Origin: a virus
IMG/VR virus record: IMGVR_UViG_3300019886_000143
Location: 1-39,334 of that record
Direction: 5' to 3' (one strand)
Length of the DNA: 39,334 bases
Shown here: positions 28,890 to 36,471 of the stretch, one piece after another
Layout of the letters: each line of letters begins with the position of its first letter
How positions within the stretch are numbered: position 1 is the stretch's first letter
Notes under the pieces: generated by a model
Told to the model about the DNA's origin: nothing
Seen by the model: only the letters and a program-made list of their open reading frames with translations
Database searches by the model: none
Program-made: the position numbers and the translations under genes

Positions 28890-29587
28890 TTGGACACCGC
28901 CCAGTCCTTGGGCCTCGGACACTCCGGCCAGCTTTCCGAATCAGCCTGGAGGCACCGCAGGATACTCAGTCGATGGATGTCCTCGGGAGCCTTCGAGGGT
29001 TTGAACACCCGATGATCTTTCTTAGGGCCGTCGGACGCGAGCTCGTCGAGGTGTCGCGTTCCCGACGTGCGCACGACGGTGCACGCGCCGATCAACTCGT
29101 ACTCGTCGCCGGCGATCCGCTTCAGCCACCCGACTTTGGTGACCTTGTAGTAGTAGCGGCCGGGCATCTGGATGATTTTCAGTCCTTCTTTCACGTCGAG
29201 TTCTCCGATCAAGATTGCGAGCAGGTTGTGAGCTTTCAGACGGGCGTCGGCGTCGGCGTCGGCGGCGGCGGCGTCGTCGGCGTCGGCGTCGGCGTCGGCG
29301 GCGGCGTCGTCGGCGTCGGCGGCGTCGGCGTCGTCGGCGTCGGCGTCGGCGGCGTCGGCGTCGTCGGCGTCGGCGTCGTCGGCGACGGCGTCGTCGGCGT
29401 CGGCGGCGGCGGCGTCGTCGGCGTCGGCGGCGGATGACCGCCTATCAAAAATCCAGTGGGCCACGCCGAGCCTCGTCGGGTTTTCGCCGTTCGATAAACG
29501 GAAGTCCTCCAACACCGCTCGGGCATCCGGATCGCTCCGAAGATCGAGAAGCTGTTGCGGAGGCTCTAGGGCTCCGCGACCGATCAC
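28886..29587 (-). CDS. Protein with long Ala/Asp low-complexity linker
   Basis: A 233-residue protein from GTG 29587. Residues 1-53 are mixed, residues ~54-115 consist of Ala and Asp with a single Val, and residues ~116-233 form a folded-looking domain (LLAILIGELDVKEGLKIIQ, GRYYYKVTKVGWLKRI). The linker is encoded by a GCC/GAC trinucleotide array. The acidic stretch may be a spacer or a DNA-mimicking segment; no family is recognised. Confidence 0.55.
   Translation of the reverse strand: MIGRGALEPPQQLLDLRSDPDARAVLEDFRLSNGENPTRLGVAHWIFDRRSSAADADDAAAADADDAVADDADADDADAADADADDADAADADDAAADADADADDAAAADADADARLKAHNLLAILIGELDVKEGLKIIQMPGRYYYKVTKVGWLKRIAGDEYELIGACTVVRTSGTRHLDELASDGPKKDHRVFKPSKAPEDIHRLSILRCLQADSESWPECPRPKDWAVSK
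29243..29434 (-). repeat. GNC trinucleotide array coding for Ala/Asp tract
   Basis: About 190 bases built almost only of GCC and GAC codons (GGC and GTC on the plus strand), with longer units visible, such as ADADDADAAD occurring twice in tandem. All three minus-strand readings stay open through it (one gives Thr/Pro repeats). Such arrays are prone to length change by slippage or recombination. Confidence 0.85.
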
Positions 29588-29778
29588 GCGACACCGGCCA
29601 GGCCGCGGAGCGTGTCTCGCGCATTGATCGCCTCTCGCGCCTGCTCTTCGGCGTTACGCTTCTTGCCGCGCGACCAACCCTCCGCGACGAGGCGTCCGCG
29701 CGTTCGGATCTCGTAGTTGAAGCCCGGCTCGCCGCACATCGCGGTCGGCCGGTAGACGATCGTGTAGGTCTTCACCAT
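29584..29778 (-). CDS. Small basic hypothetical protein
   Basis: A 64-residue protein. The first half is beta-like (KTYTIVYRPTAMCGEPGFNY), the second basic and helical (SRGKKRNAEEQAREAINARD). GTGA-coupled with the Ala/Asp protein. No family recognised. Confidence 0.55.
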   Translation of the reverse strand: MVKTYTIVYRPTAMCGEPGFNYEIRTRGRLVAEGWSRGKKRNAEEQAREAINARDTLRGLAGVA

Positions 29779-31959: not shown

Positions 31960-31987
31960 CGATTCCCTGATGGTAAAGCCCGCGCGC

Positions 31988-32036
31988 GTATCACTTCTGA
32001 GACCACCATCTTGCACTCGGTATCAGGGTCTGATAC
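31988..32036 (+). promoter_or_regulatory. Right operator/divergent promoter region
   Basis: Perfect site GTATCA-gggtc-TGATAC at 32020-32036 and a degenerate GTATCA-cttc-TGAGAC at 31988-32003. They lie between the repressor start and the Cro-like gene, so both promoters would be covered. TTGCAC (32011-32016) and GATACT (32032-32037) might be a weak rightward promoter with the -10 inside the operator; this is tentative. Confidence 0.65.
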
Positions 32037-32044
32037 TTGAGTGG

Positions 32045-32239
32045 ATGATGTCTACAGGAAACCGCATCCAGGCTATCCGCGAGAAGCGGGGATGGAGCCG
32101 GGCTGACCTGGCGAAGAAGCTCGGTTGCACGCGGATGACCGTATGGCGTCTCGAAACAGGCGAGACGAGCCTACCTGCAGACGAGCTGCCTCGGGTCGCT
32201 CGTGTGCTCAAGGCCAAAGTGACCGAGCTGATCGCGTGA
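32045..32239 (+). CDS. Cro/CI-type helix-turn-helix regulator
   Basis: A 64-residue protein from ATG 32045 (ATG 32048 also possible). It is a full HTH_3 domain: IQAIREKRGWSRADLAKKLG, CTRMTVWRLETGETSLP, and VARVLKAKVTELI. The size and the divergent place next to a repressor fit a Cro-like protein that shuts repressor synthesis or early genes. The start lies 8 bases after the right operator. Confidence 0.8.
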   Translation: MMSTGNRIQAIREKRGWSRADLAKKLGCTRMTVWRLETGETSLPADELPRVARVLKAKVTELIA

Positions 32240-32241
32240 CG

Positions 32242-32661
32242 CTACAGACCGGGAGCGCCGAGGTGCTCGGACGGCGGAACGTTGAGGCACTTCTGTCGAG
32301 CCATCTCGAACAGCCCGTCGGCCTTCGCACCGATGTCGTTTCGTTCGTCGTTGAGTGCCGCGTGCAGAATCACGCCGGGGATGATGAACAGGGCGTAGGC
32401 GATGAACAGCCCAAAGTTGCGACCGCCGGTCTCGTAGTGCTGTCGAACGTCGATCGACTGTTGCGCAGCGAGCACCTCGCAGTTCTCGCTCGGCGACTCG
32501 GGTCGTCGGCAGTTCAGCTGTGGATCGTCGTCGCCGAGCTTCATCGAAGCACCTCCGAGCACCATGCCCTGTATCGAGCACTGCTCGCGCGGCCGAATCG
32601 GCAGCTCGGCCATGCACGAGGTCAGCGCCAACACGGTCACCACGCCCAGGATTCTTCTCAT
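32242..32661 (-). CDS. Membrane lipoprotein, candidate lysogenic-conversion gene
   Basis: A 139-residue protein on the strand opposite both neighbours. RILGVVTVLALTSC is a signal with a good lipobox (LTSC, C16). Several Cys follow, and a second hydrophobic stretch (FGLFIAYALFIIPGVILHAA, ~83-102) could be a transmembrane helix. Its place next to the regulators and its isolated orientation are typical of moron genes expressed in the lysogen, for example for superinfection exclusion. Function inferred. Confidence 0.6.
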   Translation of the reverse strand: MRRILGVVTVLALTSCMAELPIRPREQCSIQGMVLGGASMKLGDDDPQLNCRRPESPSENCEVLAAQQSIDVRQHYETGGRNFGLFIAYALFIIPGVILHAALNDERNDIGAKADGLFEMARQKCLNVPPSEHLGAPGL

Positions 32662-32682
32662 CGGCAGCCAGCGTAACGCACA

Positions 32683-32931
32683 ATGCCCATCGATCGCACA
32701 CGTCGGGATGCTCTCGCGCACGCTCTTTGTGCACGAATTTGTGATGACCGTCGCAGCGAGGACGAGCTCGTCGTGGCCGACAAGCTGCTCGGTCGCATCG
32801 AGCTCGGCGCCGATCGCTACGGCCCGCTCGATCTCTCGAAGGCGCGCGACTGGGATCGCGAGCTCGCCGAGGAGCTGCTCGACGTGCAGGTGTATCGCGC
32901 GATCGCGCAGACCCTGGGGCGTCGCGTATGA
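32683..32931 (+). CDS. Hypothetical early protein
   Basis: An 82-residue, charged helical protein. ELGADRYGPLDLSKARDWDR and ELAEELLDVQVYRAI recall small phage proteins of the MazG/dATP-dGTP pyrophosphohydrolase-like group, where acidic residues bind Mg; only the shape is similar and I do not claim the activity. Its stop overlaps a 15-residue leader frame by ATGA. Confidence 0.5.
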   Translation: MPIDRTRRDALAHALCARICDDRRSEDELVVADKLLGRIELGADRYGPLDLSKARDWDRELAEELLDVQVYRAIAQTLGRRV

Positions 32932-32975
32932 CCAGCTTTTTATTTGCTCGTGCGCGTCCGGAGTGTGGACGGTGA
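32928..32975 (+). CDS. 15-codon leader peptide before the helicase
   Basis: ATG at 32928 overlaps the previous stop (ATGA); the frame MTSFLFARARPECGR ends in a TGA that overlaps the helicase GTG (GTGA). It thus forms a translational bridge between the two genes. GGAG at 32960-32963 within it serves the helicase start 8 bases later. A regulatory or purely coupling role is inferred. Confidence 0.35.
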   Translation: MTSFLFARARPECGR

Positions 32976-34573
32976 GCGCATCTATCACGTCGATCCGTCC
33001 GCGGACATTGCCGCACAACCTCGACGCGGAAGCCTCCGTGCTCGGCGGCGTCATCCTCGACAACAAGATACTTGCGGGCCTCGACATGCTCGCGACCCAC
33101 TCGTTTTACGATCCGAGACATCGCGTCACGTGGGACGCGATGCGCAATCTCCAAAGCGCCGGCCAACCGATTGACGTCGTGACGCTCGAGGCCGAGGTCG
33201 CTCGGATGGGCAAGCTCGACGCCCTCGGCGGGATGGCGTTCTTCGGCGAGATCGCGATGCGATGCCCAACGCCCGACAACGTGCTCGCGTACGCGCGGAT
33301 CATTCGCGATCACGCGCTGATTCGCGAATCTGCACTCACCGGCGCCCGCATGGTCGAGCGCGCGTACGACTGGGAATATTCGGCAGACGAATTTCTCGGC
33401 GAGCACCTCGCGGACATCCAACGGATCGAGCGCGAGTATCGCGAGGCGAACGAGAAGCTGCCGATCATCACGATCGAGGACACGCTCGACGAGAACGAGC
33501 GCCTCGCGCGAACGCCGATCTTCGAGACGCCATTCCCTGAGCTCAACAAGGCGCTCGGGTTCGGCGGTCTTCTCGGCGGTCAGGTCTACTACCTCGCCGG
33601 CGGCACGGGCTTCGGCAAGACGAGTTGGATCGCGACGGTCGTGCGTGCGCACGCCGAAGCCGGTAGGCCGGCTCTCATCGCGTTCTGGGAGATGTTCGGC
33701 GGCTACTACACCGCTCGCATGTCGGCTCCGATCCTCGGGGTGCCGGCGACGCAGATCCTGCGCGGACATGTCGAGCGTCGAAGCATTTCGAATGTGTTTA
33801 GCGCGATGCCGGGCTCGATCGAGATGCTCGATTCGCCGTCGATGTCGGTGCTTCGTCGAACGGTCGAGCGAACAATCAGACTCGGCCGCGGTGCGCCGCT
33901 GATCGTCGTCGACTACATCCAGCTCCTCGGCGAGAAGGTGATGGCGACGATGCAGCGGCCCGATCCGCGCGTCGCCGCGGGGATGGCGAGCGCCGGACTC
34001 CGCGCGCTCGCGAAGGAGACCGGCTGCGCGATCATCGCGGTGTCGGCAGCCGGACGATCAGCGTCGAAGGATCTCAACAAGGACGTCCGGAAGCATCCGC
34101 CGCGTGACCTGATCGCCGCGTCGCGCGAGAGCGGATCGATCGAGTTCGATGGCGCCGGCGTGATCGTGCTCTCGATGCTCGATGAGATGGACGGCGACGA
34201 GCACATCGCGACGATGACTGTCGCGAAGGCGCGGTTCGGGATGACCTGCCACATTGATTCGAGGTTCGGCGGTCACTCCGGCGGCTGGCGAGAAATCGGT
34301 CGCGTTCAGAAGGTGACAACGATCGATTCGAAGCGGGACGACGGCTCCTTCCGACAGGAGATCCTGGCCGCCATCAAGAAGGCCGGCGGCATCGCTTCGA
34401 AGAACAAGATCTCGAAGCTCATCGGCCGCAACAAGACGTCCGTCTTGAGCGAGGTCGACGTGATGATCGATGCCGGGATCGTCATCTCCACGAGCGGCGG
34501 AATCTCGGTCGCCCAAGTGGTTCCGGAGGTGGTTCCAGCCCTTCTTCAGACCGCGATGCTGGAGTCCCAATGA
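32972..34573 (+). CDS. DnaB-like replicative helicase
   Basis: A 533-residue protein from GTG 32972 with GGAG 8 bases before. N-terminal DnaB domain (LPHNLDAEASVLGGVILDNK, ~13-32), linker, then RecA-like domain with GGTGFGKTS (Walker A, 210-218), AFWEMFGGYYTARM, and PLIVVDYIQLLG (Walker B, D314). Unlike most DnaB proteins it carries an extra C-terminal winged-helix-like part (FRQEILAAIKKAGGIASKNK, then ISKLIGRNKTSVLSEVDVMI). No primase or loader gene was found. The 3' end of the gene contains two copies of the origin-like repeat. Confidence 0.85.
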   Translation: MSASITSIRPRTLPHNLDAEASVLGGVILDNKILAGLDMLATHSFYDPRHRVTWDAMRNLQSAGQPIDVVTLEAEVARMGKLDALGGMAFFGEIAMRCPTPDNVLAYARIIRDHALIRESALTGARMVERAYDWEYSADEFLGEHLADIQRIEREYREANEKLPIITIEDTLDENERLARTPIFETPFPELNKALGFGGLLGGQVYYLAGGTGFGKTSWIATVVRAHAEAGRPALIAFWEMFGGYYTARMSAPILGVPATQILRGHVERRSISNVFSAMPGSIEMLDSPSMSVLRRTVERTIRLGRGAPLIVVDYIQLLGEKVMATMQRPDPRVAAGMASAGLRALAKETGCAIIAVSAAGRSASKDLNKDVRKHPPRDLIAASRESGSIEFDGAGVIVLSMLDEMDGDEHIATMTVAKARFGMTCHIDSRFGGHSGGWREIGRVQKVTTIDSKRDDGSFRQEILAAIKKAGGIASKNKISKLIGRNKTSVLSEVDVMIDAGIVISTSGGISVAQVVPEVVPALLQTAMLESQ

Positions 34574-34893
34574 CTGCGCCTCAACTCGGTTTGTTCGAAA
34601 CGCCGAATAGTGAGGAGTTTCGCGGTTCCAAACCGGTTCCGGAACCACCTGGAACCACCGAGACCAGGTGGTTCCGGAACCACCTGCCGAATTCCTCAAT
34701 GATTCAAGGCGGTACAAGCATCGCCCTAAAGGGAACTGAAATCCTGGAACCACCTACCGAAAACAGACCCCTCTTGCAGGGGGAGAGTGATCGCTACGCT
34801 CTCTCCCCTGCTGATCAGAAGGGTCGTGGACCGGAACCGGACAGAAGCAGAGCTACCCCGGTTTCCACCTCCGGAACCACCTCCGGAACCACC
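34515..34893. repeat. GGAACCACC repeat array, candidate replication origin
   Basis: GGAACCACC(T) or its complement occurs at about 34515, 34527, 34641, 34651, 34666, 34676, 34746, 34873 and 34885, with partial copies (GGTTCC/GGAACC) at 34624, 34635 and 34833. 34666-34685 is a perfect 20-base palindrome (AGGTGGTTCC then its complement); 34641-34660 holds two direct copies head to tail, and the last two copies repeat at 12 bases. Between them lies a relatively A/T-rich piece (34688-34745). The array spans the end of the DnaB-like gene and the low-complexity N-terminus of the next helicase. Confidence 0.75.
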
Positions 34894-36471
34894 CCTCAAC
34901 TCCGCCCCTATCAGACCGCCGCGATCGAAGCGGTGGAGCGCGAGCTCGCCACCCATCGCAGCACCCTGCTCGTGCTTCCGACCGGCACCGGCAAGACGGT
35001 CGTCTTCGCGGAGCTCGCGCGTCGCGATGCGCTCGCCGGATCACGAACGCTCGTGCTCGCGCATCGCACCGAGCTGCTCGAGCAGGCCGCGCGAAAGCTC
35101 ACCGACGTCGGAGTCACGTCGAGCATCGACCAGGGTCAACGTATCGGCTCACGGTGGGCGCAGGTGGTCGTCGGTTCGGTGCCGACGCTGCGAGGAGCTC
35201 GCCTGCATCGCTACCCGCGCGACTTCTTCGCCAAGCTCGTGGTCGACGAGGCGCATCACTCCGCCGCGAAGAGCTACGGCAACATCCTCGAGTGGTTCAC
35301 CGGCGCGAAGGTCCTCGGCGTCACGGCCACGCCGGATCGCGCGGACGGCAAGGGCCTCGGCAAGATCTTCGAGACGCTCGCGTACTCGTACGAGATGCGA
35401 CGAGCGATCGCGGACGGCTTCTTGTCGCCGCTCCGAGCCAAGCGCGTGCTCGTGAAGGACATCAACCTCGCGGCGGTGAAGAATCGCGCCGGCGACTTCG
35501 CGCAGGACGAGCTCTCGAAGGTCCTCAACGATGCGAAGGCCGTCGTCGGCGTCGTGGTGCCGCTGCTCGAGATGGCGGACCGCCGTCGCACGCTCGTGTT
35601 CGGCGTCGACGTCGCGCACGCCAAGGCGATCGCGCAGGCGATCAACGATCGGCACCCGGGCAAGGCGATGGCGCTTGACGGAACCGCGAACGCCGTCGAG
35701 CGCGCCGCGGTGCTGGCGCTGTTCAAGCGCGGAGCGTTCCAGTTCCTGTGCAACTGCGCGCTATTCACGGAGGGCTTCGACGAGCCCAGCATCCAGTGTG
35801 TGGCGATGGCGCGGCCGACGCAGAGCCGCGTGCTGTACACGCAGATGCTCGGTCGCGGCACGCGGCTCTTCGAGGGCAAGACCGACTGCCTCGTGCTCGA
35901 CTTCGTCGGCAACAGCGGCAAGCACCGGCTGATCGGACCGGCGGATGCGCTCGCGGCCCGCGAGCTCGACGACAAGACCCGCGAGATCATCGAGAAGGAT
36001 CTCGACGGGCAGCAGGACCTCGAGGACGTGCTCGCGCATGCCGAGGAGGAGGCGAAGAAGAGATCCCGCCGCGTGAACGAGCTCGCGATCGCCGAGTACC
36101 GCACGCGCGAGGTCGATCTGTTCCTGGGCGACCACATGCCGGACGTCGACCTCGATTCGGACGCGGCTAAGCGCCCCATGACCGACGTCCAGCGCGCCGA
36201 GTTCGACCGTCTCAAGCTGGGCAAGCCTCCGCAGGGGTTCTCCGAGGCGGAGGCGCACGCAATGTTCCTCGCCGTACGGAAACGGCGGGCGCTCGGCCTG
36301 TGCACTGTGGCGCAAGCCAGAGCGTTAGAGCGGGCAGGGATCGACACCAAGGGCATGAAGTTCGAGCGGGCGAACGAGCTGATCATCAAGATCGTCGGCG
36401 CCAACGCGTGGGGCCAGCCGTGGCGTGTGTTCAGCGGCGCTCCCGAGTACCGGCCCGGGAGGCGCTCGTGA
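34570..36471 (+). CDS. SF2 DEAH helicase with sliding-clamp motif
   Basis: A 633-residue ATP-dependent helicase, ATGA-coupled to DnaB. Motifs: LRPYQTAAIEAV (~111), LPTGTGKT (136-143), VVDEAHHS (DEAH 226-229), VTATPDR (~251), and QMLGRGTRLFEG (~420). This is the UvsW/RecQ/type III restriction-like group used in fork remodelling or branch migration. Residues 1-110 are low-complexity and contain PQLGLFE at the start, a canonical bacterial beta-clamp binding motif. The coding DNA of this part holds most of the origin-like repeats. The C-terminus is helical (VRKRRALGLCTVAQARALER). Confidence 0.85.
   Translation: MTAPQLGLFETPNSEEFRGSKPVPEPPGTTETRWFRNHLPNSSMIQGGTSIALKGTEILEPPTENRPLLQGESDRYALSPADQKGRGPEPDRSRATPVSTSGTTSGTTPQLRPYQTAAIEAVERELATHRSTLLVLPTGTGKTVVFAELARRDALAGSRTLVLAHRTELLEQAARKLTDVGVTSSIDQGQRIGSRWAQVVVGSVPTLRGARLHRYPRDFFAKLVVDEAHHSAAKSYGNILEWFTGAKVLGVTATPDRADGKGLGKIFETLAYSYEMRRAIADGFLSPLRAKRVLVKDINLAAVKNRAGDFAQDELSKVLNDAKAVVGVVVPLLEMADRRRTLVFGVDVAHAKAIAQAINDRHPGKAMALDGTANAVERAAVLALFKRGAFQFLCNCALFTEGFDEPSIQCVAMARPTQSRVLYTQMLGRGTRLFEGKTDCLVLDFVGNSGKHRLIGPADALAARELDDKTREIIEKDLDGQQDLEDVLAHAEEEAKKRSRRVNELAIAEYRTREVDLFLGDHMPDVDLDSDAAKRPMTDVQRAEFDRLKLGKPPQGFSEAEAHAMFLAVRKRRALGLCTVAQARALERAGIDTKGMKFERANELIIKIVGANAWGQPWRVFSGAPEYRPGRRS
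34776..34811. other. Long hairpin within the origin-like region
   Basis: GCAGGGG-g-AGAG at 34776-34787 pairs with CTCTCCCCTGC at 34801-34811: 11 base pairs with one bulged G and a 13-base loop. It lies inside the helicase coding frame but in its low-complexity N-terminal part, so DNA- or RNA-level function is plausible, for example single-strand initiation. Confidence 0.5.

Follow-up and report, generated by a model that had tools for sequence, protein, structure and literature searches.

The iterons of the phage lambda origin (ori) lie inside or overlapping a replication gene, O, in this case the gene of a separate initiator. Other mobile elements encode a helicase that recognizes its own origin: SaPI Rep and SCCmec Cch2 both recognize, via the C-terminal domain of the helicase, repeats located just downstream of their own gene (PMC7581432). 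In SaPI Rep/ori and in the pri-rep/ori of Gram-negative PICIs, the iteron array directly follows the gene of the initiator helicase (PMC7581432, PMC6092414), and the rep-ori of an E. coli PICI supports plasmid maintenance (PMC6092414). For SCCmec Cch2, the isolated C-terminal domain binds direct repeats of a putative origin just downstream of the gene, with inverted repeats nearby (PMC7581432).

Here, we analysed a viral contig of 39,334 bases (the whole stretch, hereafter the window) that carries an array of the iteron nonamer GGAACCACC (short word GGAACCAC) at the junction of two replication genes. An earlier note on this DNA had proposed the array as a candidate origin. We propose that it is the replication origin of this phage, placed at the 3′ end of a helicase gene, with iterons that would be read by the winged helix of that helicase, a reading to which we give a probability of about 0.8. 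As in SaPI and PICIs, the array (34516-34893) is found immediately 3′ of a helicase gene (stop at 34573), and a C-terminal DNA-binding domain is predicted on the helicase at the level of the fold. By analogy, the best reading is a self-encoded origin resembling those of SaPI Rep and SCCmec Cch2, except that the helicase is of the DnaB type. The parallel with lambda O drawn in the earlier note holds insofar as the iterons are within a replication gene, but it is looser than that with SaPI Rep/ori and SCCmec Cch2, in both of which the C-terminal domain of the helicase recognizes an origin directly downstream of its gene (PMC7581432); in the window the iterons are at the end of the helicase gene and overlap an SSF2 ORF.

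The window also differs from these systems in several respects. Its helicase is DnaB-like by Pfam (DnaB and DnaB_C), unlike those of SaPI and PICIs, whereas Cch2 translocates 3′ to 5′ and has been likened to MCM helicases. The iteron reported for Cch2 is AAGTG (ACCACTTA on the origin strand). Other ORFs scanned in the window belong to families of phage recombination proteins and nucleases, with hits to exonuclease VIII, methyltransferase, endonuclease VII, HNH and RuvC-like families.

The repeat array and its genes

Eight exact copies of GGAACCACC were found, all at 34528-34893, and the rest of the 39,334 bases holds none, which answers the call of the earlier note for a count of the motif over the remainder of the genome. 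Together with a ninth copy carrying one mismatch, they confirm its count of at least nine copies within about 380 bases across two replication genes (Table 1). Over the whole span of the array, GGAACCAC occurs nine times and GGAACC 12 times, both strands included, and 12 of the 23 GGAACC cores of the record fall inside these ~375 bp. When up to one mismatch was allowed, GGAACCACC had 18 sites against 5.8 expected, a number that none of 100 dinucleotide shuffles reached. Shuffling gave no information on the most repeated 9-mer, as the window also holds a short tandem repeat of GACGCC type (29243-29643), in which one 9-mer occurs 14 times within 400 bp.

Table 1. Coordinates of the array, its iterons and the overlapping genes in the window
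Feature	Position	Strand	Basis
DnaB-like replicative helicase, DnaB N-terminal and DnaB_C domains	33008-34573	+	Pfam, phrog_19
C-terminal winged helix of the DnaB-like protein, proposed iteron-binding domain	34340-34519	+	AlphaFold2, structural matches, profile
Iteron 1, GGAACCACT, one mismatch to the nonamer	34516-34524	-	
Iteron 2, GGAACCACC	34528-34536	-	
SSF2 (ResIII/DEAD) helicase ORF, N-terminal ~105 codons overlapping the array	34570-36471	+	Pfam
Perfect 18-bp inverted repeat, 11-nt loop, built of iterons	34635-34681 (arms 34635-34652 / 34664-34681)		
Iteron 3, GGAACCACC	34641-34649	+	
Iteron 4, GGAACCACC	34651-34659	+	
Iteron 5, GGAACCACC, left half of palindrome	34667-34675	-	
Iteron 6, GGAACCACC, right half of palindrome	34676-34684	+	
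60 bp of lowest GC content in the array (45%), possible melting region	34690-34749		weak, p = 0.064
Iteron 7, GGAACCACC	34746-34754	+	
Second hairpin, GCAGGGGGAGAG...CTCTCTCCCCTGC on a GACCC/GGGTC base	34766-34826		fold
Iteron 8, GGAACCACC	34873-34881	+	
Iteron 9, GGAACCACC	34885-34893	+	

The DnaB-like gene (end at 34573) shares its last ~60 bp with the array, and the SSF2 ORF (start at 34570) its first ~325 bp. The DnaB-like protein matches Pfam DnaB (1.1e-25), Pfam DnaB_C (5.7e-21) and phrog_19 (1e-51); its ORF spans 32564-34573, and the true start is probably further downstream. A single-protein scan confirmed no relatives of this protein. The SSF2 ORF matches Pfam ResIII (4e-29), and since this match begins at residue 110, its N-terminal ~105 residues appear to be derived from the repeats.

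Recurrence of the array at helicase gene ends

A first scan of IMG/VR for three spaced GGAACCAC copies in direct orientation returned at least 120 stretches; among the matches listed, many were one-orientation arrays, some of them within long ORFs, and about 20 had mixed orientations like the window. A stricter pattern, GTGGTTCC-N-GGAACCAC-N-GGAACCAC, which combines an inverted pair with a direct copy, was found in 62 IMG/VR stretches, as compared with one for a reversed-word control. At 51 of these 62 loci the array is located at the 3′ end of a gene for an AAA_25/DnaB-type helicase or a VapE-type primase-helicase. When the ORFs near the arrays were clustered by blastp, 29 of these loci adjoined one AAA_25/DnaB-type cluster and 17 a VapE-type cluster; a domain search supplied the other five (L027, L143, L159, L171 and L172), L027 being counted only on a DnaB_C match of E 0.0011, below Pfam's cut-off. 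Eleven loci are outside the helicase count (L131, L133, L134, L137, L141, L146, L147, L154, L170, L173 and L174). The association is informative since the search specified a word and no gene, and the helicase clusters are the only protein clusters adjoining most arrays. GGAACCAC is thereby found at the same gene position in dozens of phages, often very distantly related, suggesting a similar layout in phages with DnaB- and AAA_25-type helicases.

Blastn of the L171 region among phages gave no match and tblastn of the L172 helicase a single weak one; a 19-row helicase alignment was abandoned as a search query, being too divergent. No paper tying GGAACCAC to phage replication was found in the open-access literature, where the texts combining GGAACCAC, phage, helicase and repeats dealt with other subjects, judging by title.

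Some GGAACCAC arrays have no adjoining recognized helicase. At L146:2006-2093 and L174:10915-11002 the nearest gene ending upstream belongs to a terminase cluster, at L076:3515-3735 the neighbour is a BRO/antirepressor gene, and a further array of this kind is found at L063:11055-11176. At L096:5250-5800, an array at the end of a VapE gene is followed by an antiterminator Q gene, and this stretch (GGAACCAC, VapE type) has matches in 134 of 5,426 complete E. coli genomes.

A second sample was drawn independently of the motif. An alignment of two TOPRIM plus AAA_25 helicases was used to fetch 80 relatives, of which 55 were kept after removal of near-duplicates, incomplete genes and the two query loci. 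An 8-mer present in at least five copies within 400 bp of the 3′ end was found for 17 of the 55 primase-helicase genes, as compared with 1 of 53 at 5′ ends and 13 of 581 other sequence windows (Fisher p 3.6e-12); the other 38 genes had no such 3′-end array. These genes are TOPRIM-type relatives and not of the DnaB_C type of the window, which is represented by the window and the L027/L273 contig only. The 3′-end words vary by lineage (CAGTTCGC, AGACTCCA, CCCTTGCA, GGACAACC and others). The 3′-end array is thus a trend in the TOPRIM/AAA_25 group, with GGAACCAC as one of many words. It is apparently a frequent one; the strict pattern built with GGACAACC returned 11 stretches.

In the genes of the VapE-type primase-helicases of E. 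coli prophages, Yersinia phage YeP4 and APSE-2, repeats are likewise arrayed at the 3′ end, but the proteins carry a VapE-like domain instead of DnaB_C. Some of these relatives keep the position and change the word, which is AGACAACCT in YeP4 and GTAACAACCT in APSE-2, as expected if the word and its reader change together. Behind the VapE-type genes, the YeP4 array spans L180:4560-4860 and that of APSE-2 L181:3290-3400.

The DnaB-like helicase as carrier of the array

The window places two helicase genes beside the array. SSF2 homologue loci were fetched by protein, and among the 23 examined the array was found at one, L273. L273 and L027 come from one contig; in L027 the array is flanked by a truncated DnaB_C-type ORF (E 0.0011, short of Pfam's cut-off) on one side and by the SSF2 gene on the other. 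Tblastn of the DnaB-like protein of the window against the 23 loci gave no match, L273, whose DnaB-like gene is cut by the contig end, being included in this count. The array does not travel with SSF2; its natural carrier is therefore the DnaB-like helicase.

The proposal that selection acts on the DNA and not on the protein gains support from related loci, in which GGAACCAC is intergenic (e.g. L033, L108, L120 and L124) or encodes different peptides. Major-allele frequencies averaged 0.984 in iteron columns and 0.859 outside for 16 VapE-type arrays, and 0.914 and 0.827, respectively, for ten Prim-Pol-type arrays, part of this conservation being expected since the search fixes three copies per locus. 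Most of the array of the window lies inside the SSF2 ORF, as it would if the repeat were a by-product of low-complexity coding at the start of that protein. We consider such an origin of the repeat extremely improbable: both strands and both genes carry copies, comparable arrays are largely between genes in L033, L108, L120, L124 and L027, 22 of the 23 SSF2 homologue loci have no array, and the reversed word of the control was nearly absent where the strict pattern recurred.

A predicted winged helix as the proposed reader of the iterons

The earlier note had pointed to the winged-helix end of the DnaB-like protein as the initiator, and the predicted fold, a profile and the carrier of the array now back this choice on comparative grounds. 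The last 98 residues of the helicase were modelled with AlphaFold2 together with 18 homologous segments as a winged helix (core pLDDT 92-95) with the element order H-S-H-H-S-S. Foldseek returned no match at E 0.001 or better. The best matches by Foldseek and VIA-align (Z about 9-10) were mostly winged-helix DNA-binding proteins, none standing out as a replication initiator. These matches support the predicted winged-helix fold and say nothing on its function.

Among them are repressors and the centromere-binding proteins AspA and TubR, and the gene of a Cro/CI-type HTH protein (31970-32239) lies ~2.3 kb upstream of the array. Both would fit an array that serves as a transcriptional operator, or as a partition (centromere) site, for a regulator that reads the repeats. 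We hold this to be very unlikely, as the position of the array is tied to helicase gene 3′ ends across many lineages, the structural matches show a shared fold only, and a general family scan of the ORFs recognized no partition gene.

A profile was built from 22 C-terminal segments of GGAACCAC helicases. In leave-one-out scoring, 20 of the 22 segments exceeded 10 bits, that of the window reaching 34 bits. Among unselected relatives with other words, from which L182 and L183 were set aside since both carry GGAACCAC, L248, L187 and L208 scored 22-28 bits (best 28, 24 and 22) and nearly all others below 10. The segments having been cut by hand, the link between winged helix and word given by the profile is suggestive only. 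Prim-Pol-class C-termini were not recognized by it, and their common descent with the winged-helix set is not claimed (hhalign probability 1.9). The link of domain to word is not one to one, since GGAACCAC also accompanies these Prim-Pol C-termini and VapE proteins.

The same word beside helicases with different C-terminal segments, and beside VapE proteins, is what one would expect if the origin were real but its iterons were read by another phage or host protein, the winged helix having some other role. Candidates in the window would be the Cro/CI-type protein and several ORFs near the helicase that lack a family match. We judge this reading improbable: only helicase clusters adjoin most arrays, word turnover between related VapE phages argues against a fixed host reader, and family matching recognized no separate initiator among the small ORFs scanned in the window, although the absence of a match does not exclude one.

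With the winged helix as the preferred reader, we propose the following sequence of events. The C-terminal winged helix of the DnaB-like helicase would bind the GGAACCAC iterons, thereby gathering helicase subunits on the DNA; the neighbouring duplex would open, perhaps with the help of the inverted repeats, and the helicase hexamer would load and start forks with the host polymerase. The candidate origin of the earlier note is well supported by recurrence at helicase gene ends, by the sample chosen by protein and by the carrier comparison. This comparative case is strong; from it we infer binding, unwinding and loading, as well as any part that hairpins may play in melting or priming. If the proposal is correct, a repeat array at a helicase gene end would mark in the sequence where this phage and many others have their origin, and the DNA-binding tail reading each word could be matched to it. 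More tentatively, many helicases, distantly related or unrelated to one another (DnaB-like, AAA_25 with various primase domains, and VapE-type), may share GGAACCAC as their origin word, and reading tails and origins might form an exchangeable module, with the attached GC-rich hairpin as a melting or priming site, an idea that we regard as possible but doubtful.

Hairpins and candidate origin signatures

The perfect palindrome described in the earlier note as 20 bases (34666-34685) exists and is slightly longer, 22 bp at 34665-34686. It overlaps the 18-bp inverted repeat of Table 1, which could form a hairpin or cruciform; the region 34610-34700, folded as single-stranded DNA, had a z of -7.44. 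For the second hairpin (folded region 34755-34850) z was -2.45, and 4 of 200 shuffles folded equally well. A comparable GC-rich hairpin is present in many related arrays. Among the strict-pattern loci, inverted iteron pairs are partly selected by the pattern itself, which requires inverted words; the inner GC-rich stems are not part of the search pattern and also occur in loci from the earlier direct-repeat search. The stem of L157 is unlike that of L079 in sequence, with pairing preserved. At L243:5211-5330, behind a TOPRIM-type primase-helicase gene, the array is symmetric, with three TGCAAGGGT copies, an AT-richer middle and three inverted copies in succession.

Descriptions of PICI origins give an AT-rich region with one set of iterons on either side. 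In the window, iterons flank the least GC-rich 60 bp on both sides, but the AT-richness of this stretch is not significant when compared with same-size stretches of the window (p 0.064). An early percentile ranking had made it look strong, and in view of the matched-size result AT-richness was dropped as support for the origin. Over 27 loci the median p was 0.13, with 5 of 27 below 0.05. The GC-skew check suggested in the earlier note yielded no significant signal: the cumulative minimum is at 32,018 and the range did not stand out from block shuffles (0.148).

As to a DnaA-dependent iteron plasmid origin, no DnaA box (TTATCCACA, up to one mismatch) was found within 500 bp of the array of the window. 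At other loci, three exact DnaA boxes flank the GGAACCAC array of L157:11479-11754, and one lies near the array of L178.
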